A DNA stretch of 64,000 nucleotides from Oscillospiraceae bacterium (lineage in GTDB: Bacteria; Bacillota; Clostridia; Oscillospirales; Acutalibacteraceae), in contig CADARP010000015.1 of NCBI GenBank assembly GCA_902790325.1, positions 1-64,000 on the forward strand. The letters run 5' to 3'. Numbering within the stretch: the stretch's first letter is position 1; every line of letters starts with the position of its first letter. Shown one piece after another: positions 6,098 to 35,269 of the stretch. The notes below the pieces were generated by a model, which did no database searches, was not told the origin of the DNA, and saw nothing but the letters and a program-made list of their open reading frames with translations. The position numbers and the translations under genes were made by a program.

Positions 6098-6604
6098 ATG
6101 GATATTACCCGCGAGTATAAATATATCGACCGCTTCGTGCGGTACACGAGAGATCTGCTGTGCGACCCGCTCGTCGAGAGCATGAAGCAGTACCGCCACC
6201 ACGGCGACACAAGCACGCACTACCACAGCGTGTTCGTCGCGTACAGCGTGTGCAAGATGTGCACCGATCTGCACGCATGGGACGCACGCGACATCGTGCG
6301 CGCGTCGCTCCTGCATGACTTTTACCTGTATGAATGGTACACCGAGAAGCATGACGAGAATCACATCTGGTACCACCCGAAGGAATCGGTCAAAAACATC
6401 GAGGCGCACTTCGGCCCCATGCGCGGCGTGCAGCGCAACATGATCCTGGCGCATATGTTCCCGCTGTGCAAAGAATTGCCGCATTCGTCCGGCGCGTGGA
6501 TGCTCACGCTCGCGGACAAGCGCTGCGCGTGCGAGGACTATCTCGGCGCGTCGCGGCGGTTCCGTCCCGTTTATGACGAGATCGATCGGAGGGCTAAACT
6601 ATGA
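6098..6604 (+). CDS. HD-domain phosphohydrolase-like protein
   Basis: 168 residues. An HD domain is indicated by the early His pair in YRHHGDTSTHYHS, the central LLHDFYLYEW (the HD doublet) and a C-terminal LTLADKRCA that supplies the last Asp. HD proteins are metal-dependent phosphohydrolases acting on nucleotides or related substrates; the substrate here cannot be deduced. ATG 6098 is preferred over TTG 6077 because the conserved sequence begins there; neither has a strong ribosome-binding site. Its stop overlaps the next start (ATGA at 6601-6604), so translation is coupled to the membrane protein that follows. Confidence 0.75.
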   Translation: MDITREYKYIDRFVRYTRDLLCDPLVESMKQYRHHGDTSTHYHSVFVAYSVCKMCTDLHAWDARDIVRASLLHDFYLYEWYTEKHDENHIWYHPKESVKNIEAHFGPMRGVQRNMILAHMFPLCKELPHSSGAWMLTLADKRCACEDYLGASRRFRPVYDEIDRRAKL

Positions 6605-7500
6605 TCTTTTACGCCTGCCGCTACTTTTTGTGGTTCATTCTCTACAGCGTTCTCGGATGGGTGACGGAAACGCTGCTGTATATGCTGCGCGACGGCAAAG
6701 TCGTCAAGCGCGGATTCCTGTTCGGGCCGCTCTGCCCGATCTACGGCTTCGCGTGCTGCCTGTGCGTGATGGCGATGTACGGCCGCATCAACAACGTCAT
6801 CCTGCTGTTCCTGGCGGGCATGGGCATCATGAGCACGCTCGAATACGTCACGCATTTCGTGATGGAAAAATTCTTTCACGCGATGTGGTGGGACTACTCC
6901 AACCGCCGTTTCAACATCAAAGGCCGCATCTACCTCAAGGGCTGCCTGCTGTTCGGGCTTGCGGCCGTGCTGCTGATCAAGGTCGTGCAGCCGTTCTTTG
7001 TGCAGTTGACCGTCTGGATCCCGCGCACGGCGCTGTACTGGATCTGCTTCGTGCTGTATACGATCCTGATCATCGACGTGTCCGTGATGGTCTCCGACCT
7101 CAAGCAGACGGCGCTCGCGCTCAAAACGTTCCAGGCAGAGCTGGCGTCTACGGTGCAGAAGGGCGTCGATCAGACGGGCGAACAGATCGAAAACGTCAAA
7201 AAGACGATCATGGAATCGGAGATCTATACCCGCATGATGAAAGCGCGGGCAAAGGAGAATCCGTGGCTCAAGCGGTTCAAGAAGCGGTACCCGAACTTCA
7301 CGTTCAAAAAGTACAAGTATATCCTCGACCTGATCGCCGATCCGCCGCAGGAAAACAAGGGTCGAAAAGACCTCAAGCTCTACGGCACGGCCGATACCCT
7401 GCCCGGCTCAGAAGCGGAAGAGAAGGCGGATACGACGGAAACGGACGAAGCGCAGGAAAAAGCGTCCGGCGAATCCGAACAGGAGAACACGGAATCATGA
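6601..7500 (+). CDS. PF06541-type (putative ABC-transporter type IV) membrane protein
   Basis: 299 residues. The N terminus (YFLWFILYSVLGWVTE..., then RGFLFGPLCPIYGFA) is characteristic of the PF06541 family, which has five or six membrane spans. They fill residues 5-165. The remainder is a charged cytoplasmic tail that may be coiled (about 170-240) and ends in a Glu/Ala-rich acidic stretch. The family name rests on weak similarity to ABC permeases; no ATPase or binding protein gene is adjacent, so transport is not shown. GGAGG sits 8 bases before the start; the stop overlaps the next gene (ATGA, 7497-7500). Confidence 0.8.
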   Translation: MIFYACRYFLWFILYSVLGWVTETLLYMLRDGKVVKRGFLFGPLCPIYGFACCLCVMAMYGRINNVILLFLAGMGIMSTLEYVTHFVMEKFFHAMWWDYSNRRFNIKGRIYLKGCLLFGLAAVLLIKVVQPFFVQLTVWIPRTALYWICFVLYTILIIDVSVMVSDLKQTALALKTFQAELASTVQKGVDQTGEQIENVKKTIMESEIYTRMMKARAKENPWLKRFKKRYPNFTFKKYKYILDLIADPPQENKGRKDLKLYGTADTLPGSEAEEKADTTETDEAQEKASGESEQENTES

Positions 7501-8045
7501 AAAGTCTGCGCATCCTGTTCATCGGCAACAGCCACACGTATTATAACGACATGCCTCTGCTGGTCAAACGCCGTGCCGAAAACGCGGGGTACGACTGCCG
7601 CGTCGCCATGCTTGCCCATCCGGGCTGGTACCTCGCGCAGCATGCCGAATGGCCGGAAGCCCGTTTCAACATCCTGTACGGAGGCTATGACTACGTCGTC
7701 CTGCAGGAGCACGCGCATCCGTTCGGTCCGGTGGAAACATACCACGAAGGCGCAGCCGCGCTGAACGATCTGATCCGCAAGGCCGGAAGCGTTCCCGTAC
7801 TGTACGCAACGTGGTCGGAAAAAGCCAAACCCGAAATGCAGGCGGTCATGAACGAAGTGCATGAGACGGTCGCGAAGGAGATCGGCGCGCTGCTCGCGCC
7901 CGTCGGCGAAAACTGGCTGCAATACAAAGAGAATCATCCCGATTTGGAGCTGTACGCCGACGACGGCGAACACGCGTCTGCGGCAGGTTCCGATTTTGCG
8001 GCAAGCGTCATCTGGGAGACGATAGAAAAAGATCAACGCAAATAA
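7497..8045 (+). CDS. SGNH/GDSL-family hydrolase (DUF4886-like)
   Basis: 182 residues. The N terminus LRILFIGNSHTYYNDMP carries the nucleophile block (Ser in GNSHT), the middle has DYVVLQEHAHPFG, and the C terminus has DDGEHASAAGSDFAA, supplying the Asp/His pair of an SGNH catalytic triad. There is no signal peptide, so it should act in the cytoplasm. It probably hydrolyses an ester or amide bond; the substrate is unknown. It is translationally coupled to the upstream membrane protein, giving an HD - membrane protein - esterase operon. Confidence 0.8.
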   Translation: MKSLRILFIGNSHTYYNDMPLLVKRRAENAGYDCRVAMLAHPGWYLAQHAEWPEARFNILYGGYDYVVLQEHAHPFGPVETYHEGAAALNDLIRKAGSVPVLYATWSEKAKPEMQAVMNEVHETVAKEIGALLAPVGENWLQYKENHPDLELYADDGEHASAAGSDFAASVIWETIEKDQRK

Positions 8046-8053
8046 CGTCCAAG

Positions 8054-8096
8054 CGGTGAGTTCGAGACCTTCCTCACCTTAAACAAAACTAAAGGA
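8054..8096 (+). promoter_or_regulatory. preQ1-I riboswitch-like leader of queT
   Basis: Stem GGTGAG (8055-8060) pairs with CTCACC (8073-8078) around a loop beginning TTCGAGACC. The A-rich tail AAACAAAACTAAAGGAG carries the CTAAAGGAG end that in preQ1-I switches folds back into the loop and hides the ribosome-binding site. Size, order of elements and the downstream queuosine-transport gene match the class I preQ1 aptamer. Ligand binding would block translation of queT while leaving the upstream operon untouched. Confidence 0.75.
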
Positions 8097-8106
8097 GAAA
8101 ACAAAA

Positions 8107-8601
8107 ATGAAAAAGAAACCCGTACTGTTCCTGACCCAGGGCGCAGTGATCGCCGCGATGTACGTCGCGCTGACGCTGTTGTCCAACGCATTCGGCCTCG
8201 CAAGCGGCGTCATCCAGGTCCGCATTTCCGAGGCGCTGACCATCCTGCCCTACTTCACCCCCGCGGCGATCCCCGGCCTGTTTGTCGGCTGCCTCGTGTC
8301 CAATCTGCTTGCGGGCGGCGTCATCTGGGACGTGATCTTCGGCTCCGTTGCCACGCTGCTCGGCGCCGTGTTCACATACCTGCTGCGCAAAGTCAAATGG
8401 CTTGCGCCGGTGCCGCCGATCCTGAGCAATATGCTCATCATCCCCTTCGTTCTGCGCTACGCCTACGGCGCGCCGGACTCGCTGTGGTTCATGATGCTGA
8501 CCGTCGGCGCAGGCGAACTGATCTCGGCGGGCGTGCTGGGTATCCTGCTGCTGCTCGGTCTGGAAAAGCATCGGAACGCGATTTTTAAAAATCCACAATA
8601 A
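8107..8601 (+). CDS. queT: QueT-family queuosine precursor transporter (ECF S component)
   Basis: 164 residues with about five membrane helices and the family-like segments VIAAMYVALTLLSNAFG, IQVRISEALTILPYFTP and GCLVSNLLAGG. QueT proteins are the substrate-binding S components of energy-coupling-factor transporters that import preQ0/preQ1 or queuine; the shared energising module is normally encoded elsewhere. The preQ1-type leader directly upstream supports the assignment. The start is fixed by AAAGGAG at 8091-8096, which is also part of the aptamer. Confidence 0.88.
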   Translation: MKKKPVLFLTQGAVIAAMYVALTLLSNAFGLASGVIQVRISEALTILPYFTPAAIPGLFVGCLVSNLLAGGVIWDVIFGSVATLLGAVFTYLLRKVKWLAPVPPILSNMLIIPFVLRYAYGAPDSLWFMMLTVGAGELISAGVLGILLLLGLEKHRNAIFKNPQ

Positions 8602-8614
8602 AGGCGGAATCATC

Positions 8615-9337
8615 ATGCGTACGTTTTCCATCCTGATCTTGTGTCTCGTTCTTCTGCTGTGCGCCGCTTCGTGCGGCAAAGCGACCGAGGAGGAACCGTT
8701 CAGCGCCGCGTTCACCATCCGGCCGCCCGAGTCGCTGACGGAGGTTTTCTTCGACACGTCCTATGCCGGCAATACGCACGTGCTGCGCGACGATACGCTG
8801 GACTATGATGCGCTGCGCGCGCTGTTCATCGACAGTCTGCTCGGGAGCGAGGCGGACGGACACGCCGCGCGCTGGAGCACGTCGATTCTGTATGCGCTGG
8901 AGGGCGAGTTCACCACACAGGATGCGCAAACCATGTCGGATCTTTCGATGGAGCTGGCGCGCATAATCGGGTTCCCCGGCATGCGTGAAACGACGTCGGC
9001 CAACGCCAACGTCCATATCCGCTTTGAAAGGGCAGACGGCGCACAGGTTATTCCGTATACGGATGCGGACGGACATATCCGATCCGTGCAGATCACCGTT
9101 CCGTCTTCCTATCTGCCCGCGCAGCGCAGTGCAGCTCTGCGGCAGAGGATCATGCACGCCTGCGGTTTTTTCCACACCGCGCAGACCGCGCTCGATTCCG
9201 TTCTCGCCGAGAGGCCGGCGTCCGACCTTCGTGAGGCAGACTATATCCTGCTGAGTATTCTGTACGGCGGCGTTGAGGCCGGCGACGACAAGAAAGCGTG
9301 CCTCGCCGCATTCGAGCGATACTTTGCGGAAGAATAA
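8615..9337 (+). CDS. Lipoprotein with DUF2927-like domain
   Basis: 240 residues. The signal sequence RTFSILILCLVLLLCAASC ends in a lipobox (AASC, Cys20), so the protein should be lipid-anchored on the outer face of the membrane. The mature part shows the DUF2927-like course: a beta-alpha start, RWSTSILYALEG, and near the end LREADYILLSILYGGVEAGDD, where the family has a Asp..LLr.LYd..l..G pattern. That family lacks the zinc HExxH of true peptidases and has no known function; the assignment is tentative. AAGGCGG precedes the start. It is the last gene of the run and is followed by a strong terminator. Confidence 0.65.
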   Translation: MRTFSILILCLVLLLCAASCGKATEEEPFSAAFTIRPPESLTEVFFDTSYAGNTHVLRDDTLDYDALRALFIDSLLGSEADGHAARWSTSILYALEGEFTTQDAQTMSDLSMELARIIGFPGMRETTSANANVHIRFERADGAQVIPYTDADGHIRSVQITVPSSYLPAQRSAALRQRIMHACGFFHTAQTALDSVLAERPASDLREADYILLSILYGGVEAGDDKKACLAAFERYFAEE

Positions 9338-9351
9338 AAGACAACAGATCA

Positions 9352-9390
9352 CAACAGCCGCAGGCGGAAATCCGTCTGCGGCTGTTTTTA
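9352..9390 (+). terminator. Terminator after the lipoprotein gene
   Basis: A long perfect stem, AACAGCCGCAGGCGGA against TCCGTCTGCGGCTGTT (one G-T pair), followed by TTTTA. The reverse complement has few T residues, so it works mainly on the plus strand, although it lies between convergent genes. Confidence 0.85.
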
Positions 9391-9402
9391 TGCGGTTGTC
9401 GA

Positions 9403-9978
9403 TCAGTCCAGGATCTCGCCGTAGGTGTTCGGGGCGATCAGCGCGGCGTTCGACTCGTCGGTGTCGATGTGCATGGCGAGCGCATACTTCGTGCTCACAC
9501 GCACGACCACGTCGCCGAAGATCAGCGAGCGTTCGGGCGACTCGACCTTGACCGAAACGATCTGCTTGTCCTGCACGCCGTAGTTCGCGGCGTCCTCGGG
9601 CGTCATGTGGATGTGGCGCTTGGCGACGATCACGCCGCAGTCGATGTCCACTTCGCCCGCGGGTCCGATCAGCTTGCACGGCGCGGTGCCGGCGACGTCG
9701 CCGCTCTCACGCACGAAAATCGGCACGCCGATGGAACGCGCGTCCGAGGCGGACAGCTCCACCTGCGTTTCGGGGCGGACTGGGCCGAGGATGGACACGG
9801 CCGGAAAGCTCTTCTTCGGGCCGATGACCTGCACACGTTCCTCGCAGGCAAACTGGCCGGGCTGGGACAGATCCTTCTTCGGCGTGAGCTTGTAGCCCTT
9901 GCCGAACAGCGTTTCCAGAACTTCCTGCGTCACATGCAGGTGACGCGCCGATGTTTCGATCAATACGGGTTTGTTCAT
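9403..9978 (-). CDS. pduL: PduL-type phosphate acyltransferase
   Basis: 191 residues. Two PduL halves carry the metal-binding patterns SARHLHVT (N half) and AKRHIHMTPEDA (C half), with conserved SFPAVSILGPVR and NYGVQDKQ segments. PduL interconverts acyl-CoA and acyl phosphate (acetyl or propionyl) and replaces Pta in many Clostridia. The N terminus lacks the amphipathic encapsulation peptide of microcompartment versions, and no shell genes are nearby, so a free cytosolic role in acetate or propionate formation is likely. It is the last gene of the shape operon, 31 bp after the MinD-like gene; AAAGGAAG precedes its start. Confidence 0.9.
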   Translation of the reverse strand: MNKPVLIETSARHLHVTQEVLETLFGKGYKLTPKKDLSQPGQFACEERVQVIGPKKSFPAVSILGPVRPETQVELSASDARSIGVPIFVRESGDVAGTAPCKLIGPAGEVDIDCGVIVAKRHIHMTPEDAANYGVQDKQIVSVKVESPERSLIFGDVVVRVSTKYALAMHIDTDESNAALIAPNTYGEILD

Positions 9979-23446: not shown

Positions 23447-25192
23447 TTATTCTGAAACGGTTTTTTCCCGTTCGGCGCGCCACTTGTCCACGGCGGACGA
23501 CGGCGTCACGACGCGGGAAAGGAAAAAGTCGCGCCGCTGCGCTGTATTGAGTACCGTCACGGGTTTGATCTGATTGAGCACCTTGCCGCTCTGCAGCAGA
23601 CTTTCCGTGTATGCCGCGTAGCTGCCCTCCTCGAGAAACACGACTTCCGGCGCGCCGATCATCGTCATGCGGCGCGTTTCGTACTTATCGTTGTACTGTT
23701 TGAAATACCCGTCCAGCAGTTCGGACATCTTCTGCCGCGTTTGCGCGTCGACCGGTTCCGCGGTTTCAAAAAGCATACAGTAGCGCGGCGGGTTTGTGGA
23801 GAAGTCGTCGCAGACGCTGTATCCGGCGATCTTCAGTCCGAGATCGTTCGTCATGTTTTTGACCGCCTCGTCCACCATGTCGGTCGTCATTTTTTCGTTG
23901 GCAATGTTCATGCCGAGGTTCCGGCGGTACAGAAACTCGATCTGCGGCGTTTGCTGATACATGCGCGTGACACGCACCACGTCGAACATGCGGTAACGGT
24001 ACAGGCCGGAAGAGTTGGTGATGACCACCTCGTATTTTTTGCCGATCTCCAACTCGTGCAGCAGCAGCGTTTGCGGATGTTCGTCCTCTGCGTTCGGATC
24101 GTTGTCGTCGACCGGAATGAACTCAAAAAAGACACAATGCGGCAGCAGCACATAGTCGTCGGCGTCCAGCTCCGTCGCCATTGCAAAAAAGCCCTCTGCG
24201 GCGCCGTAGCCCATATTGTGGATCGGAATGTCGGGACCGATGTAGCGGCGCAGCTTTTCGACATAGACTTTCAAGGTGGAGCTGACCATGCCGTACACCC
24301 AGCAAAGGCGCGGCCAGATGCGCGGCGCGACCGGATCGTCGAAACCTTTTTGGAACACACGGCGCAGTTCGTCCGCACGCGCGGGATTCGGGCGCAGCTT
24401 TTTGCTGTACTCCGCGCGAAGCTCGGGCGTGACGCGCACCGACGGATCGATAACGCCCTTTTCGATGTCGTCGCACAGCATCTGCCAGTTGTGCTCGAGG
24501 TAGTCGAACATCGTCGTCAGCAGTGTGATGACCAGAGACCCCAGATAGCTGACGCTTTGATCCTCCAGCGCGAAGCGCAGCTGCAGATACGGCATATCCA
24601 GAAGCTGCTCGCGCGTCGGGTACATCAAAGACAGCGGCGACGTGCAGAACAGCGGCATGATGCATTTGAGGTAATCCAGCGGCACCTGTCCGGCGTCGTT
24701 GATCTTTTTGCCGTCCGGCGCCGTATGTCCGGTAAGCGCCATTGTCAGCAGACCGACCTGCCGCGGCATACGGATCCCCTTCTTGCGGCGCAGGTCATGC
24801 GCGGCGGTCGCAACGGAACAGGAGAAACCGATACACTGCATTTTCCACAGATCGCTTACGCTTTTGGGCAGCATTTTCGGCTTGCCGACGGAGCCCGAGG
24901 AGGTGCAGTAGCGCACGTTGCGTCCCGTGTACATCAGGTTCCGCTCGCCGCGCATCATGCGCTCCACGTACGGCGCATAGTCCGCGTACGTGCTCAGCGG
25001 CACCGTCCGGCGAAACGCTTCGACGGAAGCGATGCGGTCAAAACGGTATTTCCTGCCGTATTCGCTCGTGCGGCTGCGGCGCAGGATCTTGCGCAGCAGA
25101 GCGTTCTGCGCTTTGACAGGATCTTTGGTGTAGTGTTCGATTTCCAGAAGCGAGACGTCACCCAGATAGATGCCGAGATCGGAGAAGGGCAT
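23447..25192 (-). CDS. GH3-family acyl-adenylating amido synthetase, copy 1
   Basis: 581 residues, the usual GH3 length. All three nucleotide-binding motifs of the family are visible: TSSGSVGKPKMLP (about 98-110), the second motif as NMGYGAAEGFF (about 325-335, keeping the Glu but with Ala-Ala for the plant Ser-Ser), and SSGLYRYRMFDVVRVT (about 392-407). The C terminus keeps NQIKPVTVL, matching the plant GH3 lysine region. Plant GH3 enzymes adenylate carboxylic acids and couple them to amino acids; bacterial substrates are largely unknown. ATG 25192 is preferred (AAAGGA about 10 bases before) over GTG 25201. It is the last gene of the four-gene operon and very similar to copy 2. Confidence 0.88.
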   Translation of the reverse strand: MPFSDLGIYLGDVSLLEIEHYTKDPVKAQNALLRKILRRSRTSEYGRKYRFDRIASVEAFRRTVPLSTYADYAPYVERMMRGERNLMYTGRNVRYCTSSGSVGKPKMLPKSVSDLWKMQCIGFSCSVATAAHDLRRKKGIRMPRQVGLLTMALTGHTAPDGKKINDAGQVPLDYLKCIMPLFCTSPLSLMYPTREQLLDMPYLQLRFALEDQSVSYLGSLVITLLTTMFDYLEHNWQMLCDDIEKGVIDPSVRVTPELRAEYSKKLRPNPARADELRRVFQKGFDDPVAPRIWPRLCWVYGMVSSTLKVYVEKLRRYIGPDIPIHNMGYGAAEGFFAMATELDADDYVLLPHCVFFEFIPVDDNDPNAEDEHPQTLLLHELEIGKKYEVVITNSSGLYRYRMFDVVRVTRMYQQTPQIEFLYRRNLGMNIANEKMTTDMVDEAVKNMTNDLGLKIAGYSVCDDFSTNPPRYCMLFETAEPVDAQTRQKMSELLDGYFKQYNDKYETRRMTMIGAPEVVFLEEGSYAAYTESLLQSGKVLNQIKPVTVLNTAQRRDFFLSRVVTPSSAVDKWRAEREKTVSE

Positions 25193-25222
25193 GACGGACA
25201 CATCCTTTCTGTAGTCCCTGTA

Positions 25223-26098
25223 TCAATAGCTGACTGTATAATCGATCACGCCCGAAGCGTTTTGCAGATGCACGTTGAACGCGAGCACCTTTGCGTCGAG
25301 CGAATAGAGCATCGCTTCCACACGGTACGTCCATTTGCACGTGCCCGAAACGAATTTTCCGGTGCGGTTGTCCACTTTGACGGTGATGGTCGGGTTCCGG
25401 TACGCGATCTCGACCTTGCCGCTGTCGAAGTCCGCCGAAACGCCGGGCATCTCATTGACGGCCTGATCCACGCCGTCGAGCACCGTCATGCTGCGGCCGA
25501 CAGGGCCTTCAAACGCTTTGCCCCGTGCGCCGTCGGTCTGCTGCGCGACCTGCACGCGGATCGTCGTATACGTTCCGTCGCTGACCGCGGTCGCGGACTT
25601 CCAGTCCGCGGGACGGATATCCGCATACTTTCCGGGCAGCGGATCGTCCGTTACGGTATTTTTGGCGACTGCCTTCTTGGCGATCGGCTCAAACACGTCC
25701 ACATGCGACGCGACTTTGCCCTCGCCGCCGTTCAGGGAGAGAAGGTCGAGCGTTTTGGTATATTGCTTCACGTCGTTTTGGGCGCAGGCGAGTTTATAAA
25801 ACGTCAGCACTTCCTCCACGTCCGTGCTGTTGAGTCCCGCCTCCAGTGTGATCTCCGCCTTCTCCGAAGACGCTTCTTCCGTCGCGGACGCTTCCGTTTC
25901 ATCTGCCGCCGTCAAATCGGCGTCCGCCTGCTGCGGTGCAGCCGTTTCCGGCACGACCGGTTCCGTTTCGGGCTCGGTCGTCGCGGCGGCTTCGGTCTGT
26001 GCCGGCGCGGTCGTCTGCGGCTGTTCCGTTCTGCCGCACGCGGCCAGGAACAGCAGGACGGCGCACAGCAGCGCAATCGTTCGTTTCATCTGTTTCAT
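25223..26098 (-). CDS. Lipoprotein of the GH3 operon
   Basis: 291 residues. A signal sequence with lipobox (LFLAAC, Cys21) is followed by a Thr/Ala/Glu/Pro-rich linker (about 22-95) and a globular domain (about 100-291). The domain looks mostly beta (TTIRVQVAQQTD, GKVEIAYRNPTITVKVDNRTG, WTYRVEAMLYSL). No known family was recognised. Its start overlaps the stop of the hydrolase gene (ATGA, 26095-26098) and is served by AGAGGAG. Being membrane-anchored outside the cell next to a secreted hydrolase, it may bind the same ligand; that is inference. Confidence 0.75.
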   Translation of the reverse strand: MKQMKRTIALLCAVLLFLAACGRTEQPQTTAPAQTEAAATTEPETEPVVPETAAPQQADADLTAADETEASATEEASSEKAEITLEAGLNSTDVEEVLTFYKLACAQNDVKQYTKTLDLLSLNGGEGKVASHVDVFEPIAKKAVAKNTVTDDPLPGKYADIRPADWKSATAVSDGTYTTIRVQVAQQTDGARGKAFEGPVGRSMTVLDGVDQAVNEMPGVSADFDSGKVEIAYRNPTITVKVDNRTGKFVSGTCKWTYRVEAMLYSLDAKVLAFNVHLQNASGVIDYTVSY

Positions 26099-27642
26099 GC
26101 GGCGCTCCTCTTGCTTTCGATCTGTCTGCGGATAAGCGTGAGCACGGCCTTGATAAACCGTTTCAGCGCTTCAATGAATGTGTGGCGGTACCGCGCGGTC
26201 GTGTCGCAGTTTTCCGCCGTCATCGGCGAAATGCGCTGCGTTTGTTCGTCATAGACCATGTACTGCGGATAGTCCTCGCTGTCAAATACGGTCGCGTCTG
26301 TGTCGAGAATGTGCGCGAAGAGATATTCGACACATTCCGGGAAATCCTTGTGCGCCAGGTTCTTGATAAACCATGTGCGGTCCGGAAGCAGACACGCGGA
26401 CGCGTCGATCTGGCGGTCGGGCGAAACGAAGCGCATGTCCGCCGATTTGAGATAGGATTCTTTGAGCGTGCCGTTGATCGTTGCCGTGACGGCGCCGAGG
26501 GACGCGTCCTCCACGCTGCACAGTTTGTCGGACATCATATCCGACTGCCGCGTCACGGGGATCGTCTGCACGCCGTATTTGACGATGTTGGCGACGCCTG
26601 TCCCCATCTTGCGGTACCGTTCAAACAGCTCCGGCGTTTTGACCTGCACGTTGTAGTGATAGTCGTCGATGATGCGGATGAAGTTCCTGTATTTTTCCCT
26701 GTCCGCGCCGAAGAATACGGTCTGTTTCGCCTTTTCGTAATCCCTGTCGGCGACCATGCTCCAATAGCCGGGGAAGGAAGCGTATGTATCGATGAGGATC
26801 GGCGGCACGACGTTCAGATAGATCTGGCGGTAGACGTTGTTGACTGCCCAGCACGCAACGTCCAGCCCGTACGTTTTGCGCATCAGCGTCACAAAGGACT
26901 GCAGAAGATCGGTCAGCGTCCGGTCCGCGAACAGCTCAAGATCGTACATAAACCGCTCGACGCCGCCGCTTTCGAGATAGATCTCGCCGCAGAACGCCTT
27001 GCTGCACTGTGTTGCGCCGTACAGCGCGCTGCAGTACAGCAGGTAATCCTCCACATACTGCGCATCATATTTTTCCATATATGCCGCCGTGATGCACGCG
27101 CCGAGGCAGCGGCCAACCAGATTGACCTTCGTTTCACCGGTCACAGCCAGGACATCCTCGATATAGGCGTGCAGGATATCCGCCGTCTTGTAGGGGTCCA
27201 TGCGCCAGTCATACTCGAAACGAAACCGGTTCGTCGGGTATTTCCCGCCGACTTTGCCGCCGTCGATCGATGCGCGGTTCCAGTCCCAATCCACGACGCT
27301 GCCGTTGGGCGCGTTTCCGTTCTCATCCAGCCGGATCTCGTCAAACAGCGGTACAAAAACATCGCGCAGCACCACGCAGAACTCGTCCCACTGCTGGGTA
27401 AAGAAGGCGCGTTTGAACACGTCGAGATTCTCCTTGACGGTCGTTGCGATAAAGTCGTCCGGCAGCTGCAGCCCATAAACCTGGCGCGTCGAACCGTCCG
27501 GCTCGTGCACGACCAGCGGGGAGCCCGCGCCGAGAACATACACGGTCGGGATGTCCGTACCCGGAACGTCCGCGGCAAACGCGAAGACGCCGCTGCCCGC
27601 AAGCAGCGCAAGACACAGTAAAAATGCAATCAGTCGTTTCAT
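26095..27642 (-). CDS. Secreted LCAT-like alpha/beta hydrolase with Cys nucleophile elbow
   Basis: 515 residues. A signal peptide (about 1-24, ending AFA-AD) marks export. The fold is recognised from IPTVYVLGAGSPLV, FEYDWRMDPYKTADILHAYI and KVNLVGRCLGACITAAYME. In LCAT/lipase relatives the last has GHSxG, but here the elbow is GRCLG (177-181), putting Cys179 in the nucleophile position. A His candidate is in WFIKNLAHKDFPE. A Cys elbow is known from dienelactone hydrolase and PHA synthases. The product may cleave or transfer an acyl group. ATG 27642 overlaps the upstream GH3 stop (ATGA) and has AGGAG upstream. There is a basic C-terminal tail (LIRRQIESKRSAA). Confidence 0.8.
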   Translation of the reverse strand: MKRLIAFLLCLALLAGSGVFAFAADVPGTDIPTVYVLGAGSPLVVHEPDGSTRQVYGLQLPDDFIATTVKENLDVFKRAFFTQQWDEFCVVLRDVFVPLFDEIRLDENGNAPNGSVVDWDWNRASIDGGKVGGKYPTNRFRFEYDWRMDPYKTADILHAYIEDVLAVTGETKVNLVGRCLGACITAAYMEKYDAQYVEDYLLYCSALYGATQCSKAFCGEIYLESGGVERFMYDLELFADRTLTDLLQSFVTLMRKTYGLDVACWAVNNVYRQIYLNVVPPILIDTYASFPGYWSMVADRDYEKAKQTVFFGADREKYRNFIRIIDDYHYNVQVKTPELFERYRKMGTGVANIVKYGVQTIPVTRQSDMMSDKLCSVEDASLGAVTATINGTLKESYLKSADMRFVSPDRQIDASACLLPDRTWFIKNLAHKDFPECVEYLFAHILDTDATVFDSEDYPQYMVYDEQTQRISPMTAENCDTTARYRHTFIEALKRFIKAVLTLIRRQIESKRSAA

Positions 27643-29384
27643 ACGGTCTGCTCCTGTTCTGCGCGCCACTTGTCCACCGCGGACGAGGGCGTTGCAACAT
27701 GGGAAAAGAAGAAATCCGTACGCTGCGGCGTATTGAGCACCGTCACGGGCTTGATCTGGTTGAGTACGACGCCGTTTTTGCGCAGCATATCGTGATAGTC
27801 CGCATAGGCATTCGGCTGCAGGAAGAGAACCTCGGGCCTTCCGAGCATGCCCCAGCGGCGGTATTTGAAGTATTTTTCGTTGATCTCCTTGAGCGCGTCA
27901 TCCAGCACGTCGATCATCTGCTGACGCGTCTGCTCGTCCGCGGGAGACGCGGTTTCGACAAGCATACAGTAGCGCACCGGCGTCGTCGAATAGTCGGGGC
28001 AGAAGCTGTATCCGACGAATTCCGTGCCCGTCTGCCGTGCGGTGCGCGCGGCGGCGGCGTCCGTCATTTCTGTCGTCGTCTTTTCGTTGGCGATGTTCAT
28101 GCCGAGATTGCGTCGATAGAGGAACTCGACCTGCGGCGTGCCCTGATACATGCGCGTGACCTGCACCACGTCGTCCATGCGGTAGCGGTACAATCCGGAG
28201 AAGTTGGTCACGACGACCTCGTACTTTTTGCCGACCTCCAGCTCGTCGAGCAGCAGCGTCTGCGGATTCTCGTCCTCCTGCGCATCGGGGTCGTCGTTTA
28301 CGGGGATGAATTCAAAAAAGATGCAGTGCGGCAGCAGTACATAGTCGGTCGTGTCCAGCTCCGTCGGCATGGCGAAATAGCCCTCCGCGGCGGCATAGCC
28401 CATGTTGTGCAGCGGAATATCGGGACCGATGTAGCGGCGCAGCTTCTCGGCGTAGACCTTCAGCGTCGAGCTGACCATGCCGTACGCCCACGTCAGACGC
28501 GGCCAGATGCGCGGCGCGATCGGCTCGTCGAAGCCCTTCTCAAACTCTTTGCGCAGCTCCGCGGCGCGTGCGGGATTCGGCTTGAACTTTTTACTGTACT
28601 GCATACGCAGCTCCGGCGTGATGCGCACCGACGGGTTGATGATCCCCTTCTCGATGTCGTCGCAGAGCATCTGCCAATGCGACTCGAGGTACTCGAACAT
28701 CGTTGTCAGCAGCGTAATGACCATGGAGCCGAGATAGCTGACCTTGCGGTTTTCGAGCGCAAAGCGAAGCTGCAGGTAGGACGTGTCGATCTGATCCTCA
28801 TGCTCGGGATACATCAGCGACACGGGCGACGTGGAAAACGTCGGAATGATCATACGCAGGTTGTCCAGCGGCACCTGTCCGGCGCCGTTGCATTTTTTGC
28901 CGTCCTCGGCGGGATGTCCCGTCAGGATCAGCAGCAGCGGTCCCATCTGCGGCGGCAGACGCTTGCCCTGCTTTTTGAGATAGTGCGCGGCCGTCGCTAC
29001 GGAACAGGAAAAGCCGATGCACTGCATTTTCCACAGATCGTTCAGTCCCTTGGGCAGCACCTTCGGCTTGCCGACCGAACCGGACGAAGAACAGTAGCGC
29101 AGATTGGCGCCCGTATACATCAGGTTTCGCTCGCCGCGCATCATGCGCTCCACATACGGCGCATAGTCCTCGTAGCGCGTCAGCGGTACCGTTTTACGAA
29201 AATCGTCAATGGAACGTATATTCGCAAAATCGTATTTTCTGCCGTATTCGCTCGTGCGGCTGCGGCGCACGATCTTGCGCAGCACAGCGTTCTGCGCGCG
29301 CATGGGGTTCTTTGTATAATGCTCGATTTCCAACAGAGAAACGTCTCCCAGAAGGATTCCGAGATCAGAGAATGACATTTTCAT
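27639..29384 (-). CDS. GH3-family acyl-adenylating amido synthetase, copy 2
   Basis: 581 residues from ATG 29384; ATG 29378 is an alternative, and the ribosome-binding site (GGAACGGA) is weak for both. Motif I (SSSGSVGKPKVLPKG), motif II (NMGYAAAEGYF) and motif III (FSGLYRYRMDDVVQVT) are intact, as is NQIKPVTVL near the end. It aligns with copy 1 over the full length with long identical blocks (for example APYVERMMRGERNLMYTG), so the two arose by duplication. They differ most in residues 420-470 and in the C-terminal third, where acyl or amine specificity is set in plant enzymes. It is the first gene of the operon, with its own sigma-A promoter. Confidence 0.88.
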   Translation of the reverse strand: MKMSFSDLGILLGDVSLLEIEHYTKNPMRAQNAVLRKIVRRSRTSEYGRKYDFANIRSIDDFRKTVPLTRYEDYAPYVERMMRGERNLMYTGANLRYCSSSGSVGKPKVLPKGLNDLWKMQCIGFSCSVATAAHYLKKQGKRLPPQMGPLLLILTGHPAEDGKKCNGAGQVPLDNLRMIIPTFSTSPVSLMYPEHEDQIDTSYLQLRFALENRKVSYLGSMVITLLTTMFEYLESHWQMLCDDIEKGIINPSVRITPELRMQYSKKFKPNPARAAELRKEFEKGFDEPIAPRIWPRLTWAYGMVSSTLKVYAEKLRRYIGPDIPLHNMGYAAAEGYFAMPTELDTTDYVLLPHCIFFEFIPVNDDPDAQEDENPQTLLLDELEVGKKYEVVVTNFSGLYRYRMDDVVQVTRMYQGTPQVEFLYRRNLGMNIANEKTTTEMTDAAAARTARQTGTEFVGYSFCPDYSTTPVRYCMLVETASPADEQTRQQMIDVLDDALKEINEKYFKYRRWGMLGRPEVLFLQPNAYADYHDMLRKNGVVLNQIKPVTVLNTPQRTDFFFSHVATPSSAVDKWRAEQEQTV

Positions 29385-29429
29385 CACATCCGTTCCGATC
29401 AATTCCGGTGCAGTCAGCAACAGAGTTGT

Positions 29430-29458
29430 ATTATACCACGTGTGCCGAAAAAAGTCAA
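29430..29458 (-). promoter_or_regulatory. Strong promoter of the GH3 operon
   Basis: Minus strand: TTGACT (29453-29458), a 17-bp spacer and a consensus TATAAT (29430-29435), about 46 bp before the first GH3 start. Near-consensus boxes suggest high constitutive expression unless repressed. Confidence 0.85.
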
Positions 29459-29479
29459 ACAAAGAAAAGCTGCCGCCCG

Positions 29480-29522
29480 GGGAAAAAGGAAAAGGCTGCC
29501 GCACCGGAAAGGTACGGCAGCC
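29480..29522 (-). terminator. Terminator of the dockerin protein gene
   Basis: Minus strand: a 12-bp stem GGCTGCCG[T/C]ACC around a 5-base loop, followed by TTTTCCTTTTT. It lies just after the stop at 29537 and separates this gene from the GH3 promoter. Confidence 0.85.
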
Positions 29523-29536
29523 GTGCTGCTGTGGAA

Positions 29537-32500
29537 TTATTCGATGACCTGCGAAATCACCGAAATACCTGCGTTGGCCAAACGCGCCTCCGTAACGTCG
29601 GAGGAATTGACGTTGCCGTCATGCGTGATGTCCGCCGCGAAGTACTGTGCGGAATCCGGAGCGTACTCGACCAGACCTGCGTTCATGTTGCGCAGCTCGG
29701 TGACGTCGGACGAGTTGACGTTGCCGTCGCCGTTCACGTCGCCGAAGATGACGATCTCGTACGTCGCATCGGTGTTGCCGGAGAAGTCGTTGATCACTTT
29801 GACCTTGGTGCCCGTACCGATAATGGCGGGTTCAAGCTCGATGTGACCGTTGCCTTCCACGCCGAGGAAGCTGTCAAGCAGCTGCTGCTGCGTGATATTG
29901 GCTTCGAGGCCGTAGATGAAACCGCGTTCATCGTCGATCACGGTCGTGGAGCCTTCCTGCGCAACCAGCGTGACCTTGTCGGCAATCCAGACCGCGTAGA
30001 GGGTCTTGCTGCCGGTGCCTGTCGCCGTGAAGGACGTCAGGGGCTGCGTTGCGTTCGTTTTGTCGGACCATCCCGCAAAGATGTAGCCTTCCTTGGAGAA
30101 GTCCAGACCCTGCGGCAGATCCGCGGCGGCGATCGTTTCACCGACCTCGACCTGCATGCTGGCGGGTCTGGTGCCGTACTCCGCGCCGTTGAGATTGAAG
30201 TTGACGGTCATGAAGTTGACGATCCAGATCGCGTACATCGTGACCGGTTCCTCGCCGTAGATCGTGTACGAGGTGTACGGATTGGTACCCGTCGAGCTGG
30301 TGCTCCAGCCGCCGAACGTGTAGAACTTTCTACTGAATCCGGCGCTGCCGGGAAGGGTGACGGTCGTGTTGACCGGTCTGGTGATGTCGGCGGGCGCCGT
30401 GCCGGTACCGCCGTTGAGATCGAACTTGACCGTGCCGGTCATCTGGTAGTACTCGCCGTAGAGCAGGAGATTCTGCGCGGGCATGGTCTCCGGCTTCTCA
30501 TAGAGCTGCGTCATCGCCTCGTCGGTATACCAGCCGCGGAAGCCGTAGCCGTAATCGGACCAGTCATCCGGTTCGGGCAGATCGAACGTATCGCCGTAGA
30601 AGAGGTTCTCCACAAACGGGCCGTCTTCCGGCTCGCCGTCGAAGAAAGTGATGGTGTGGATGGAGTACGTGACGTGCTCGGTGAAGCCGTAGAGGATCGT
30701 ATCCTGCGTCAGCGTCATCGGGAACGCGGCAAGCGCGCCGTCCGCGCTGTTCTCCGTACGCCAGCCGGTGAAGTTGTAGCCGGGGTCGGGCGTGTAGCCG
30801 ATGCTCGCTTCGGTGACCTGCGTGCCTCTCTGTACCTCGATCGGATCGCCGTACTGTCTGCCGTTGATGTAGAGCGTCAGCATATTGCCGTCGATCACGA
30901 TGGAACCGTAGAAGTCCTCGTTTTCGGCGGGGAACGTCGTGTAGGTGAAGGGCGTGCCGTTTGCGTTCTTCCAGCCGGAGAACACGTAGCCCTCATTCAC
31001 CGAGACGGTCGGCGCCTCGAGCGCTTCACCGTACTGACCGATCTTGGTGCTGAACGGCGTCGTGCTTTCGCCCAGGAAGAAACGGACCGTGATCGTTTTG
31101 GCCGTCCACTTGGCGGTCAGCGTGATGTCCGTTGCCGGATACTTATTGATGGTATAGGACGCGGTATCCTTCAGCCAGCCGCCGAAGGTGTAGCCCGCGC
31201 GGGTGGGATTCTCCGGAATGTTGGTCACAGCCGTATCGAACAGGCCGCTGAGCACCACCATCTGCTGCTGGTTCTGGAATTTACCGCCGTCCGCGTTGAG
31301 CGTGATGCTGGTGGTGTTTCTCAGATACCACAGATCCAGGATCAGCGGATTCGAGGTCTCGCCTCTGACAATGCCGGTAAGGTTCGGGTTCTGGCAGGTA
31401 AAGCCGGCATACACTTTGGCGGTCGCCGTGACTTCGGTGCCGACAGCGGCCTTCAGCACCTGCTGTTCATAGTTATCCATGAAGCCGCTTGCTGTCGCGT
31501 TCTGCTTGTGATGACGGACGTAGTAAGTGGCCTGCTTGCCGACCCACTTCGCATACAGCGTGATGGAATCCTGCATCGGGACCGGGAACGCGGAAGCGTC
31601 CACATAGTCCGTATCGTCCGCGTTGTTGGTCAGCGTCCAGCCCAGGAAATCGTAGTAGCTGCGGGTCGGGGTCGGAAGCTGCGCCGTACCGCCCTGCTTG
31701 GCGTTTTCAATGGCGTCGAGCGAATCGCCGCCGTTGGTGATAAAGTTGATGCGGCAGGTCTGCATCGGGGTAACGGCAAAGCGGAAGTCGGAATCGACGA
31801 TGCTGTTGATCGTCTTATCCCAATCCTTGGCGTTGCTGTACGCAGCGTCTGCCTGCAGACACGCGGCGATCTTGCCGCCGGTCTGCTCGGTCGATCTGAC
31901 GAATTCGGGAGACATGAAAAGCTGTGCGTATTCCGTGGTGCCGTCCGCAAGAGGCGCGCCGGGAAGCACAAGGAACTGGAAGGACGCGATGTCCACCTCG
32001 CCGTTGGGACGCACGCGCGTACCGTTCGAGACGTCGGGTCCGTCATAGTAAACGAATTCGTAGTTGCTGTATTCATCCTTGAGCGTGCGGTTGTCCACAG
32101 CCCAGTCCGCGGGGAAATACTGGCTGGTCGGCGCGATACCGGCCTTGACACGTCCGGTCGGCGCGCCGCAGGTCCAGACGTTGCCGCCCTCGTTGTCGAG
32201 CAGCGTGAAGTACGCTCTGCCCGGCGTCGAGGAACAGGCGCTGGTGCCGGAGATCGCGGATGTCACCGCAACGCCGTTCTTTGCGGGCGTCAGGTAGCGC
32301 TTGTCGTAATAGACCACAAAACGGTGGTTCGTCACGTAACGGTTCGCCTGGATGGAAACCGTCGCGGTGATGATGTCGCCCTGCGCAACCGTGTCGGTCG
32401 CGTCGGTACGCAGACGGAATGTCGCGGTGTAGGGCTCCTCGACGTATGCGGCGACGAGCGTGATGTCCTGTGCGGGAACGGTCGTCAGCTCATACGGCTC

Positions 32501-35269
32501 GCCGTTGAGCATCCATGTGCTGAACACATAGTCGGTCTTGGTCGGAACCGGAGGCGGCGTGATCGTGGAGCCGCAGTCGATGTTCTGGTACGCGGCCGCA
32601 TTGAAGCCGGGCGCCATAACGCCCTCGCCGGGATCGAAGGTGATGGTGAACTTCAGCGGGGTATAGATGGCGAACAGCGCCACATTGTTGCCGCCGATGG
32701 TGATCGGGAACGATCTGGGGCTGCCGGTACCTCTGGGATTGCCGTACCAGCCCTTGAAGGTAAAGCCTTCCTTCTGCGGGTCCGCGGGTCTTTCGACACG
32801 CGAACCGACGTCGACCGTCAGGAAGACGGGATCTTCGCCGTTCTCCGGATAGAAGAACACGTTGCGCACGTCCTCGCTCCACTTCGCAAAGATCTCGATG
32901 TCTTCGCCGGGGATCGTGAAGGTGCTCATATCGACCGGCCGCGTCAGCGCGGCGTCATAGTACCAGCCGTTGAATCCGACGCCTGTCTGCGTAGGCGGCG
33001 TCGGCTCGGCAACAGGCGAACCGAACAGATCCGTGACGGTGTAGGTATCCGCGTTGCCGGTGAACTTGCCGCCGTTGGCATTGAAGGTCACGGTGAAAGA
33101 GTCTGCCGTCCACTTGGCATACACGACGCTCAGGCTGCCGAACGTGAAGCCGCTCCAGTTGACGGGCGTCTCCAGCGTTTCATCGGTGTACCAGCCGAGG
33201 AACCGGCAGCCGGTCTTGGTCGGCGTCTCGGTCGGGCCGGTATAGGGATCGCCGTTGTTGCCGATGGCCATCGGCATCTCGCTGCCGCCCATCGTATTGA
33301 ATTCAAGCGTCTTGCCGGTGATCTGCCAGCCCGCGTACAGGGTGTACGCCACGCCGGCGTTGTCGACCTTGGTGTCCAGATCGGCCTTGAAGTACGGGCT
33401 CGCGGGATCGAAGTAAAGCGGCCAGCTCACGGGTTCCGTCGTCTCGGCGTCGAAATACCAGCCGGTGAATCTATAGTACTGTCTAGAGGGATTGGTCGTC
33501 GGTCTCGTGATCTCGGCCGTGAAGGACGTCGTGAAGTTTGCGGGTACGCCCGTCACGCCGTCCGCGTTCGCATTGAACTCGACGCTCATCAGCTTGGACG
33601 TCTGATTCTGCGGAGTCTCGATCAACGCATTGACCGCGTTCATGAGGTTGATGCGCATCTGATCGACGGTGCCCTGATAGCGCGCGTCGAGCGGCGTCTT
33701 TTCGATCGTCTCGTCGTGATCGAGATTGTACTCGATCTTGATGTCGTCGATCGCATCAATGAGCGCCGCGGCAAGAGAATACTGATAATACTTGCCGTAT
33801 GTTTCATCGGAGTACTGCACGAAGAAGTCGGGATTGTCGAGCGTCTGCGAGATCGTGGAATAGATGCTCTCGATGCCGGAATAATCCGCGTCCGCGTACA
33901 TCATGCCGGAGACCCACGCGCCGCTGCTGTTGTAGTTCGGAGTCGCCTGCGTCAAAGCCGTAATGGCGTTGTTGATGTCGTCCTGCGAGACGTTCTCTTT
34001 GCCGTAGATGAACCACGCGTTCTCCAGCGCCTCGAGATACTGATCCCACGATCTGAATCTCGAGCTGGTGCCGGGATTCGTGTTGCGGAACTGCGACGCC
34101 TGGTAGTTGTTTGACATCGCGGTGCTGATCGCAGTCCAAAGCGCGGACTTGTTGTAGGTCGCGATGTCGATCTGGTAATAAGTATGCGAATCATGATAGG
34201 AATGCTGCCAGTGGAGCGCATCCGTGTCCACGTTGCCTTCCCAGTGGATCTCTGCGTTGATCTGTGCCGAACCGCCGTGCTCGCCGACCGGCGGAAGCGG
34301 ACCGGAAAAGACGTCGCCGCGCGCGCTGCCGACGCCGACGCTGCCCGAACCGGTATTCGATACGGAATAAACGCCGTCCGCCTGCGCGCCCTGATAGAAC
34401 TGACTATTGATAGCCGTGCCGAGATACTTCTGCGGGTGATTTCCGGGATCTTCGAGCACCGCGTGCGTCTTCGCAACGGACGCCAGGCCGATGGCTTCCA
34501 CCGTTTGCACCTGCGAATAGTCCGCATACAGCGTGCCCTTTGCCGTCGTGACGGAGTAGCTCTTTTCATCATCGCCGCTGCCCATGTCGTACTCCCACAG
34601 GTAGGAGGACGCATATGTGCCCGTGGCCGCGGCGTACACACCCTGTCCCTGATGGACGTAGCCCTGCGTATAATTCGACGCCGTTTCCGTCGCCGGTCTG
34701 CCGAGCACGGGGCCGATCCACTCGACGTGGTGGTTGTGCGTCTGATAGCTCAGGGAGTTCTTGTGTACCAGGTGCACGCCGAAACCGGGGTCGTTGTACG
34801 TCGGGCGCACCTGCGACCACGCATAGGTCACATAGCTCTTGCCGCCGACCGTGTAGGAAAGCGTCCATTTGACCTTGGTCGACCCGTCCGATGCCGGCGC
34901 GGTTTTGAGCGTGCCGCCCTGGATCTCCCAAGTGGATTCGCCGCTCGTCGCCTGGCTGCGCGCGGACAGCTGCACACCCGCGTCGCTGCACGCGAGCGAA
35001 ATGTTCTCCACCGAAGCGGTGCCGGTCGGCGTGATCGTCGCCTGAACCTGACCCTCGGCCGAGACGTTGTTGCCGCCCTGGTAGATGTCCGAACCGTACG
35101 TCTTCAGATACGGCGGGACCGTGAAGATCACGGACGGGCTGAGAACCGTCGCCGCCGTACGCGGTACAGTCGGCGCAGCGCTGCCGATCACGGTAAACGC
35201 GACTGTCATCGTGGTGAACGCCATCACGACGGCCAGCAGCACGCTGATCGTACGCTTGAAATTAGTCAT
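29537..35269 (-). CDS. Giant secreted Flg_new-repeat protein with cohesin-like domain and type I dockerin
   Basis: 1910 residues. Signal peptide about 1-33. Residues 35-550 form a region of unknown fold. Twelve Listeria-Bacteroides (Flg_new, PF09479-like) repeats are marked by FxGWY-type cores: five at about 555-940 and seven at about 1175-1800. Between the sets, about 945-1165, lies a domain starting GDIITATVSIQANRYV and FVVYYDKRYL that resembles a cohesin. The C terminus (about 1843-1905) is a dockerin with two calcium loops, DVNGDGNVNSSD and DITHDGNVNSSD. Dockerins plug into cohesins of cellulosome-type scaffolds; no glycoside hydrolase module is seen. It is transcribed alone. Confidence 0.88.
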   Translation of the reverse strand: MTNFKRTISVLLAVVMAFTTMTVAFTVIGSAAPTVPRTAATVLSPSVIFTVPPYLKTYGSDIYQGGNNVSAEGQVQATITPTGTASVENISLACSDAGVQLSARSQATSGESTWEIQGGTLKTAPASDGSTKVKWTLSYTVGGKSYVTYAWSQVRPTYNDPGFGVHLVHKNSLSYQTHNHHVEWIGPVLGRPATETASNYTQGYVHQGQGVYAAATGTYASSYLWEYDMGSGDDEKSYSVTTAKGTLYADYSQVQTVEAIGLASVAKTHAVLEDPGNHPQKYLGTAINSQFYQGAQADGVYSVSNTGSGSVGVGSARGDVFSGPLPPVGEHGGSAQINAEIHWEGNVDTDALHWQHSYHDSHTYYQIDIATYNKSALWTAISTAMSNNYQASQFRNTNPGTSSRFRSWDQYLEALENAWFIYGKENVSQDDINNAITALTQATPNYNSSGAWVSGMMYADADYSGIESIYSTISQTLDNPDFFVQYSDETYGKYYQYSLAAALIDAIDDIKIEYNLDHDETIEKTPLDARYQGTVDQMRINLMNAVNALIETPQNQTSKLMSVEFNANADGVTGVPANFTTSFTAEITRPTTNPSRQYYRFTGWYFDAETTEPVSWPLYFDPASPYFKADLDTKVDNAGVAYTLYAGWQITGKTLEFNTMGGSEMPMAIGNNGDPYTGPTETPTKTGCRFLGWYTDETLETPVNWSGFTFGSLSVVYAKWTADSFTVTFNANGGKFTGNADTYTVTDLFGSPVAEPTPPTQTGVGFNGWYYDAALTRPVDMSTFTIPGEDIEIFAKWSEDVRNVFFYPENGEDPVFLTVDVGSRVERPADPQKEGFTFKGWYGNPRGTGSPRSFPITIGGNNVALFAIYTPLKFTITFDPGEGVMAPGFNAAAYQNIDCGSTITPPPVPTKTDYVFSTWMLNGEPYELTTVPAQDITLVAAYVEEPYTATFRLRTDATDTVAQGDIITATVSIQANRYVTNHRFVVYYDKRYLTPAKNGVAVTSAISGTSACSSTPGRAYFTLLDNEGGNVWTCGAPTGRVKAGIAPTSQYFPADWAVDNRTLKDEYSNYEFVYYDGPDVSNGTRVRPNGEVDIASFQFLVLPGAPLADGTTEYAQLFMSPEFVRSTEQTGGKIAACLQADAAYSNAKDWDKTINSIVDSDFRFAVTPMQTCRINFITNGGDSLDAIENAKQGGTAQLPTPTRSYYDFLGWTLTNNADDTDYVDASAFPVPMQDSITLYAKWVGKQATYYVRHHKQNATASGFMDNYEQQVLKAAVGTEVTATAKVYAGFTCQNPNLTGIVRGETSNPLILDLWYLRNTTSITLNADGGKFQNQQQMVVLSGLFDTAVTNIPENPTRAGYTFGGWLKDTASYTINKYPATDITLTAKWTAKTITVRFFLGESTTPFSTKIGQYGEALEAPTVSVNEGYVFSGWKNANGTPFTYTTFPAENEDFYGSIVIDGNMLTLYINGRQYGDPIEVQRGTQVTEASIGYTPDPGYNFTGWRTENSADGALAAFPMTLTQDTILYGFTEHVTYSIHTITFFDGEPEDGPFVENLFYGDTFDLPEPDDWSDYGYGFRGWYTDEAMTQLYEKPETMPAQNLLLYGEYYQMTGTVKFDLNGGTGTAPADITRPVNTTVTLPGSAGFSRKFYTFGGWSTSSTGTNPYTSYTIYGEEPVTMYAIWIVNFMTVNFNLNGAEYGTRPASMQVEVGETIAAADLPQGLDFSKEGYIFAGWSDKTNATQPLTSFTATGTGSKTLYAVWIADKVTLVAQEGSTTVIDDERGFIYGLEANITQQQLLDSFLGVEGNGHIELEPAIIGTGTKVKVINDFSGNTDATYEIVIFGDVNGDGNVNSSDVTELRNMNAGLVEYAPDSAQYFAADITHDGNVNSSDVTEARLANAGISVISQVIE

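Follow-up and report, generated by a model that had tools for sequence, protein, structure and literature searches.

A clade of bacterial GH3-family proteins is coupled to an exported Cys-type alpha/beta-hydrolase in gut Clostridia

Described relatives of the two enzymes

The GH3 protein OlsH and the alpha/beta-hydrolase OlsI make ornithine lipid in Singulisphaera acidiphila, where their genes share an operon with OlsG, and OlsH makes N-acyl ornithine with free fatty acids as its acyl source (PMC12493201). Though bacterial GH3 proteins are common, OlsH was the only one with a known function in the literature searched. The remark in the initial annotation of the present locus that GH3 proteins are mostly studied in plants is now incomplete, as this bacterial pathway of a GH3 protein and an alpha/beta-hydrolase was described in 2025 (PMC12493201).

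The operon studied here occupies the minus strand at 23447-29504 of the window, the whole 64,000-nucleotide stretch of DNA that was analysed, and is transcribed in the order GH3a, exported hydrolase, lipoprotein, GH3b. As in the Ols operon, a GH3 ligase is encoded together with an alpha/beta-hydrolase, and the GH3 motifs follow the same order. However, the partner in the window is exported, of Cys type and LCAT-like, and the system belongs to gut Clostridia and lacks OlsG, whereas the Ols operon is planctomycete. No OlsG N-methyltransferase is present in the window operon, nor was one recognised among the genes that recur next to 80 relatives, some of which were searched for families. When scored with the OlsH equivalog model NF052613, the two operon GH3 proteins reached 95.2 and 102.7 bits, below the cut-off of 620. 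On the tests made, the window system would work like OlsH/OlsI without being a member of that system.

The plant GH3 proteins JAR1/GH3.11, GH3.12 and GH3.5 resemble those of the operon over the whole fold (Z about 40) and in the three nucleotide motifs; they differ in sequence (22-26% identity), and the window GH3 proteins stand in an operon with an exported enzyme. For the hydrolase, the best structure matches are lysosomal PLA2 (PLA2G15; Z 19.2) and LCAT (Z 18.9), over 272-279 residues with an rmsd of 4.1-4.4, followed at lower scores by Tle4 (Z 16.3) and bacterial lipases (about 15; 15.1). Both LPLA2 and LCAT are phospholipid:alcohol acyltransferases. Like the window enzyme they are extracytoplasmic and add extra lipid-binding parts to an alpha/beta-hydrolase core; unlike it they are eukaryotic, carry a Ser nucleophile and use a ceramide-like acceptor or cholesterol, with about 14-15% identity to the hydrolase. 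PhaC is an alpha/beta-hydrolase acyltransferase with a Cys, and differs from the window enzyme in being cytoplasmic and in using acyl-CoA. The PHA depolymerase PhaZ7 gave a weak sequence match (6.9e-6) and a fold match of Z 13, but has a Ser nucleophile and degrades polyester. No LCAT relative with a Cys nucleophile was found in the literature searched.

The operon and its proteins

All four open reading frames proposed in the initial annotation, the single near-consensus promoter and the two exported middle products were recovered (Table 1), as were both ATGA overlaps, at 27639-27642 (GH3a/hydrolase) and 26095-26098 (hydrolase/lipoprotein). Likely starts are the ATG at 29378 or 29384 for GH3a and that at 25192 for GH3b. 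The promoter boxes are kept in the related loci L236 and L237, with TTGAC and TATAAT invariant. The promoter lies 3' of the preceding gene's strong terminator, which separates that gene, with its dockerin and List-Bact repeats, from the operon. Directly upstream, positions 29537-35269 encode this secreted protein of 1910 aa, which has many Listeria-Bacteroides repeats and, at its C-terminus, a dockerin; in L236, too, the four-gene operon lies behind a secreted-protein gene of similar length (1917 aa). Rfam and tRNA scans of the window returned no match, and PADLOC gave neither a match nor a sign of a defence system in it.

Table 1. Positions of the operon features in the window.
Feature	Position	Strand	Basis
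Intrinsic terminator of upstream dockerin/List-Bact-repeat gene	29494..29522	-	12-pair stem then T-run
Sigma-70-type promoter of operon, TTGACT-17-TATAAT	29430..29458	-	11/12 consensus positions matched
GH3a, clade-A GH3-family acyl-acid amido synthetase	27639..29384	-	Pfam and predicted fold
Secreted LCAT/LPLA2-like alpha/beta-hydrolase, Cys nucleophile	26095..27642	-	Alignment, AF2 model and structure match
Accessory surface lipoprotein	25223..26098	-	Lipobox LAAC; homologues directly after hydrolase in relatives
GH3b, second clade-A GH3	23447..25201	-	72% identity to GH3a; tree sister

The Pfam GH3 N/M/C domains were matched by the two operon GH3 proteins with 243.5/96.8/69.2 and 240.2/97.9/63.2 bits (cut-off 23.6), the E values for GH3a being 3.8e-72, 8e-28 and 6.4e-19; in both proteins the N domain has an E value of about 1e-71. 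The nucleotide motifs SSGSVGKPK (100-108), AAAE (331-334) and GLYRYRMDD (397-405) have the same numbering as in JAR1, and an alignment of 44 GH3 proteins shows S101, G102, G105, K108, E334, G397, R400, Y401 and D405 to be invariant. An AF2 model of GH3a (pLDDT 90.8) superposes on JAR1 with a Z of 40.9 over 527 residues. Judged by these motifs and domains, the proteins belong to the GH3 acyl-acid amido synthetase family, and ATP-dependent amide formation is predicted. GH3a and GH3b are sisters in the tree (support 100/100), in agreement with the earlier description of two duplicated full-length proteins with all three ATP/AMP motifs. The further suggestion that two enzymes would allow two substrates found no support: as duplicates the copies are each other's sisters, and a single GH3 is usual among the loci.

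The hydrolase has a signal peptide, as read from its sequence. Cys179 (codon 27106-27108), within GRCLGA, takes the place of the catalytic Ser, and none of 37 Cys-type homologues departs from it; the alignment also shows Asp409 to be conserved, and His431 in nearly every case. These three residues probably form a catalytic triad, with Asp409 as the acid and His431 as the base. The AF2 model (pLDDT 93.1) has an LCAT/LPLA2-like fold, a predicted likeness at the global level that does not show acyltransfer. Pfam LCAT (PF02450) matches 12 of the 37 Cys-type members, with a best E value of 6.3e-7, the window hydrolase itself having no match. Its C-terminus forms an amphipathic basic helix (about residues 489-514). 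Such a C-terminal amphipathic helix, mostly basic, is shared by nearly all members, with a median moment of 0.62, and would lend itself to membrane attachment. The initial annotation had named this protein a secreted Cys-hydrolase; both the Cys nucleophile and export stand, while the LCAT/LPLA2 likeness and the replacement of Ser by Cys are newly recognised. No relative of the hydrolase was present in the phage collection.

In the lipoprotein, the lipobox evident in the sequence is followed by a Thr/Glu-rich linker and a conserved domain. It had no Pfam match above cut-off, and a PDB profile search returned nothing convincing (best E 0.083). Homologues were sought with the mature domain, since the low-complexity linker could cause profile drift; this search identified a distant homologue in L088. 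The order GH3-hydrolase-lipoprotein occurs in only 7 of 80 loci (L236-L240, L252 and L277), and relatives of the lipoprotein turn up in GH3-free genomes as well, so the lipoprotein is accessory. The full order GH3-hydrolase-lipoprotein-GH3 was found only in the window and in its rumen sister L236 (RUG13261, 87% identity).

Coupling of clade-A GH3 with the Cys-type hydrolase

We surveyed 300 genomes, most of them metagenome-assembled, drawn from the window's GTDB family, which is larger than this sample. Pfam GH3 was detected in 38, in 37 of these above cut-off, and at three places in the window's own genome. In a tree of 54 GH3 proteins, clade A comprises 25 entries (100/100), GH3a and GH3b among them. 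In a class-wide sample no clade-A GH3 was found outside the GTDB family, the best identity to GH3a being at most 38% over full-length matches. Another clade (7 entries) has a secreted GDSL hydrolase adjoining in six cases, one of which is the window genome's third GH3: in L106 (G000:C9:52400-70400) the GH3 gene at 7895-9595 is followed by a secreted GDSL/SGNH hydrolase at 6433-7854, a pairing that recurs in the family. As the GDSL and Cys hydrolases have different folds, GH3 proteins have been paired at least twice with exported lipase-type enzymes. Condensation-domain proteins adjoin a further set of GH3 genes, some of which also have ACP and AMP-ligase genes beside them. L064 and L068, from another GH3 clade, hold a compact cluster of AMP-ligase, condensation domain, ACP (70 aa), GH3 and condensation-like acyltransferase, likely a small natural-product or lipid cluster.

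The secreted alpha/beta-hydrolase family was present in 70 of the 300 same-family genomes, and no full-length member was found elsewhere in the order sample. Between 1 and 22 matches were counted per genome in the 27 genomes scanned; the Ser-nucleophile LCAT-like secreted hydrolases form a large, apparently family-restricted set in their own right, with up to 22 matches in one genome. As nucleophile, one part of the family has Cys and the other members have Ser. Among 126 members read, all 54 of Cys type came from GH3-positive genomes. GH3-negative genomes contributed 46 members (45 Ser, 1 Gly, 0 Cys); these were the top-ranked ones by resemblance to a query of Cys type, a choice that makes Cys types more likely to be found. 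In 27 further genomes, chosen because the Cys type had not been seen or no member had been read, every readable member was Ser or Gly. A midpoint-rooted tree of 125 members gathers the 54 Cys proteins in a single clade (SH-aLRT 100) that branches from within the Ser proteins, which indicates a single Ser-to-Cys switch. The Cys genotype coincides with this clade, so the residue is inseparable from the clade's other features.

Across 301 same-family genomes, clade-A GH3 occurs in 22 and the Cys-type hydrolase in 21, all 21 having both (Fisher p 2e-31, a value that treats the genomes as independent, which they are not, so that within-genus contrasts are the better evidence). The exception is G292, with clade-A GH3 and no detected Cys enzyme; genomes with other GH3 clades only have no Cys-type hydrolase. 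Outside the 21 carriers, the genomes had Ser paralogues alone or lacked the family. Within five genera (g1, g15, g16, g57 and g133) the two features are present or absent together; in the window's own genus, for example, its genome (G000) has both and G087, G194 and G267 have neither. This joint presence or absence within genera speaks against simple common descent.

For independent loci, 84,980 species genomes were scanned with a clade-A GH3 alignment, which yielded 80 loci, and genes were called with our own script, a self-trained caller. This set overlaps in part with the 301 genomes (L297, for instance, is the G227 locus). The records are labelled Oscillospiraceae, Ruminococcaceae, Clostridia and similar, nearly all are metagenome-assembled, and many come from herbivore rumen and hindgut samples. 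It was found that the hydrolase adjoins clade-A GH3 on the same strand in 41 of the 80 loci, several of the pairs with ATGA-type overlaps, and that all 41 hydrolases are of Cys type. Many other Cys-type enzymes stand alone in GH3-positive genomes. Tandem pairs of clade-A GH3 with no adjoining hydrolase were seen in L303, L305 and L312. Neighbours of some GH3 loci such as LepA and NifS/NifU/MnmA-like proteins are housekeeping genes judging by sequence and were set aside.

The core of the system is the pair of clade-A GH3 and Cys-type secreted hydrolase, and their coupling is strongly supported. Where the initial annotation saw an undescribed system of four genes, it is this pair that recurs, across the loci as in the co-occurrence data, and the four genes do not hold as a unit; the system is both smaller and more broadly distributed than first supposed. 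A GH3 protein coupled to an exported Cys hydrolase is apparently an undescribed system.

A possible amino-lipid pathway and its alternatives

Three loci place the Cys enzyme among genes that point to lipid synthesis. L252 (10900-16653) has an unbroken series of GH3, Cys enzyme, lipoprotein, PlsC-type acyltransferase, ACP and AMP-ligase; in L121 two Cys enzymes accompany AMP-ligase, ACP and phosphopantetheinyl transferase; and L174 has a condensation protein, ACP and Cys enzyme. We propose an amino-lipid pathway in two compartments, with amide formation by GH3 inside the cell and acylation by the Cys enzyme outside, a reading on which we are evenly divided. In the cytoplasm, clade-A GH3 would activate a carboxylic acid, most likely a (hydroxy) fatty acid, by ATP-dependent adenylation, and coupling to an amine or amino acid would then yield an N-acyl amide. 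This product would move to the outer membrane face, where the exported enzyme, held by its C-terminal helix, would load an acyl group onto Cys179, probably from a phospholipid, and pass it on to a hydroxyl group of that product, so that an acyloxyacyl-type amino lipid results. The surface lipoprotein may assist in some lineages. The analysis itself establishes the layout of the genes, the predicted folds, the conservation of active-site residues, the signal peptides and the coupling across genomes; we infer what the enzymes act on, that the Cys enzyme transfers acyl groups and does not hydrolyse, the export and the role of the lipoprotein.

The amide-forming half is proposed because of what is known of the GH3 family and of OlsH, and the acylation half because the Cys enzyme has an LCAT/LPLA2-like fold and, like PHA synthases, a Cys nucleophile, and because of the neighbouring genes and the precedent of OlsI. 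The broader reading, a new extracytoplasmic lipid pathway of gut Firmicutes in which a GH3 ligase of plant type would make the N-acyl amide core and an expanded clade of secreted Cys-type LCAT-like transacylases (up to 6 per genome) would finish it at the outer membrane face with phospholipid acyl groups to give amino lipids not seen before, is put forward tentatively, and we lean somewhat against it. Several points count against the proposed pathway, among them the low OlsH-model scores of GH3a and GH3b, the clade-A GH3 of G292 with no detected Cys enzyme, and the finding of no LCAT relative with a Cys nucleophile in the papers searched. With GH3 cytoplasmic and the hydrolase exported, it needs a transport step, which is missing; and the surplus of Cys-type enzymes over GH3 genes in several genomes, with up to 6 in G003, does not fit a simple one-to-one pathway.

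That surplus is as expected of processing enzymes, and would suit a different scheme in which the GH3 product, an N-acyl amino acid or another amide, leaves the cell and is hydrolysed or otherwise processed there by the secreted Cys enzymes, which might instead act on related conjugates of host or microbial origin. Cys179 could equally serve a hydrolase, the Cys enzymes descend from Ser hydrolases in the tree, and a GH3 clade other than A has a secreted GDSL hydrolase as its partner. However, the best structure matches are transacylases, and the neighbours in L252 and L121 belong to lipid synthesis. A full Ser-to-Cys replacement, moreover, characterises acyltransfer enzymes (PHA synthases, for example) and not extracellular esterases. 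We consider this scheme rather unlikely, though a serious contender.

It is improbable that the conjugate is not a lipid at all, with GH3 amidating an aromatic or bile acid for signalling or detoxification and the Cys enzyme acylating the amide or attaching it to the cell surface. The substrates of plant GH3 proteins are small aromatic and jasmonate acids, and the GH3a model gives no readable fatty-acid specificity, yet the lipid-synthesis neighbours, the LCAT/LPLA2-like partner and the use of fatty acids by OlsH all argue otherwise. An ornithine-lipid system orthologous to planctomycete OlsH/OlsI is less probable again: the two kinds of enzyme are the same and are likewise encoded in one operon (PMC12493201), but the scores with the OlsH model (95-103 bits against 620) are far too low for its cut-off, the partner here has Cys as its nucleophile as well as a signal peptide, and no OlsG-type gene is found among the recurrent neighbours. 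Least probable is that the two genes were inherited together in a few lineages, by shared ancestry or hitch-hiking, and share no pathway. Although both are confined to one GTDB family in the samples searched and each forms a single clade, the two come and go together inside g1, g15, g16, g57 and g133, they are directly adjacent in 41 of 80 loci with several ATGA-type overlaps, and it is the Cys clade alone that is associated with GH3, not the many Ser paralogues of the same genomes.

The amino-lipid reading is the one we prefer, and the pair suggests an undescribed two-step pathway to an unusual membrane lipid. A partner that co-varies almost perfectly with a GH3 clade makes the function of these GH3 proteins testable through a lipid that needs both enzymes. 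In a secreted LCAT-like enzyme, a switch from Ser to Cys that took place once and is seen only alongside a single GH3 clade is unusual as an evolutionary sign that hydrolysis has given way to a new reaction. Uncultured bacteria of the gut carry the system, many of them in herbivores, and there N-acyl amides could have effects on the host.
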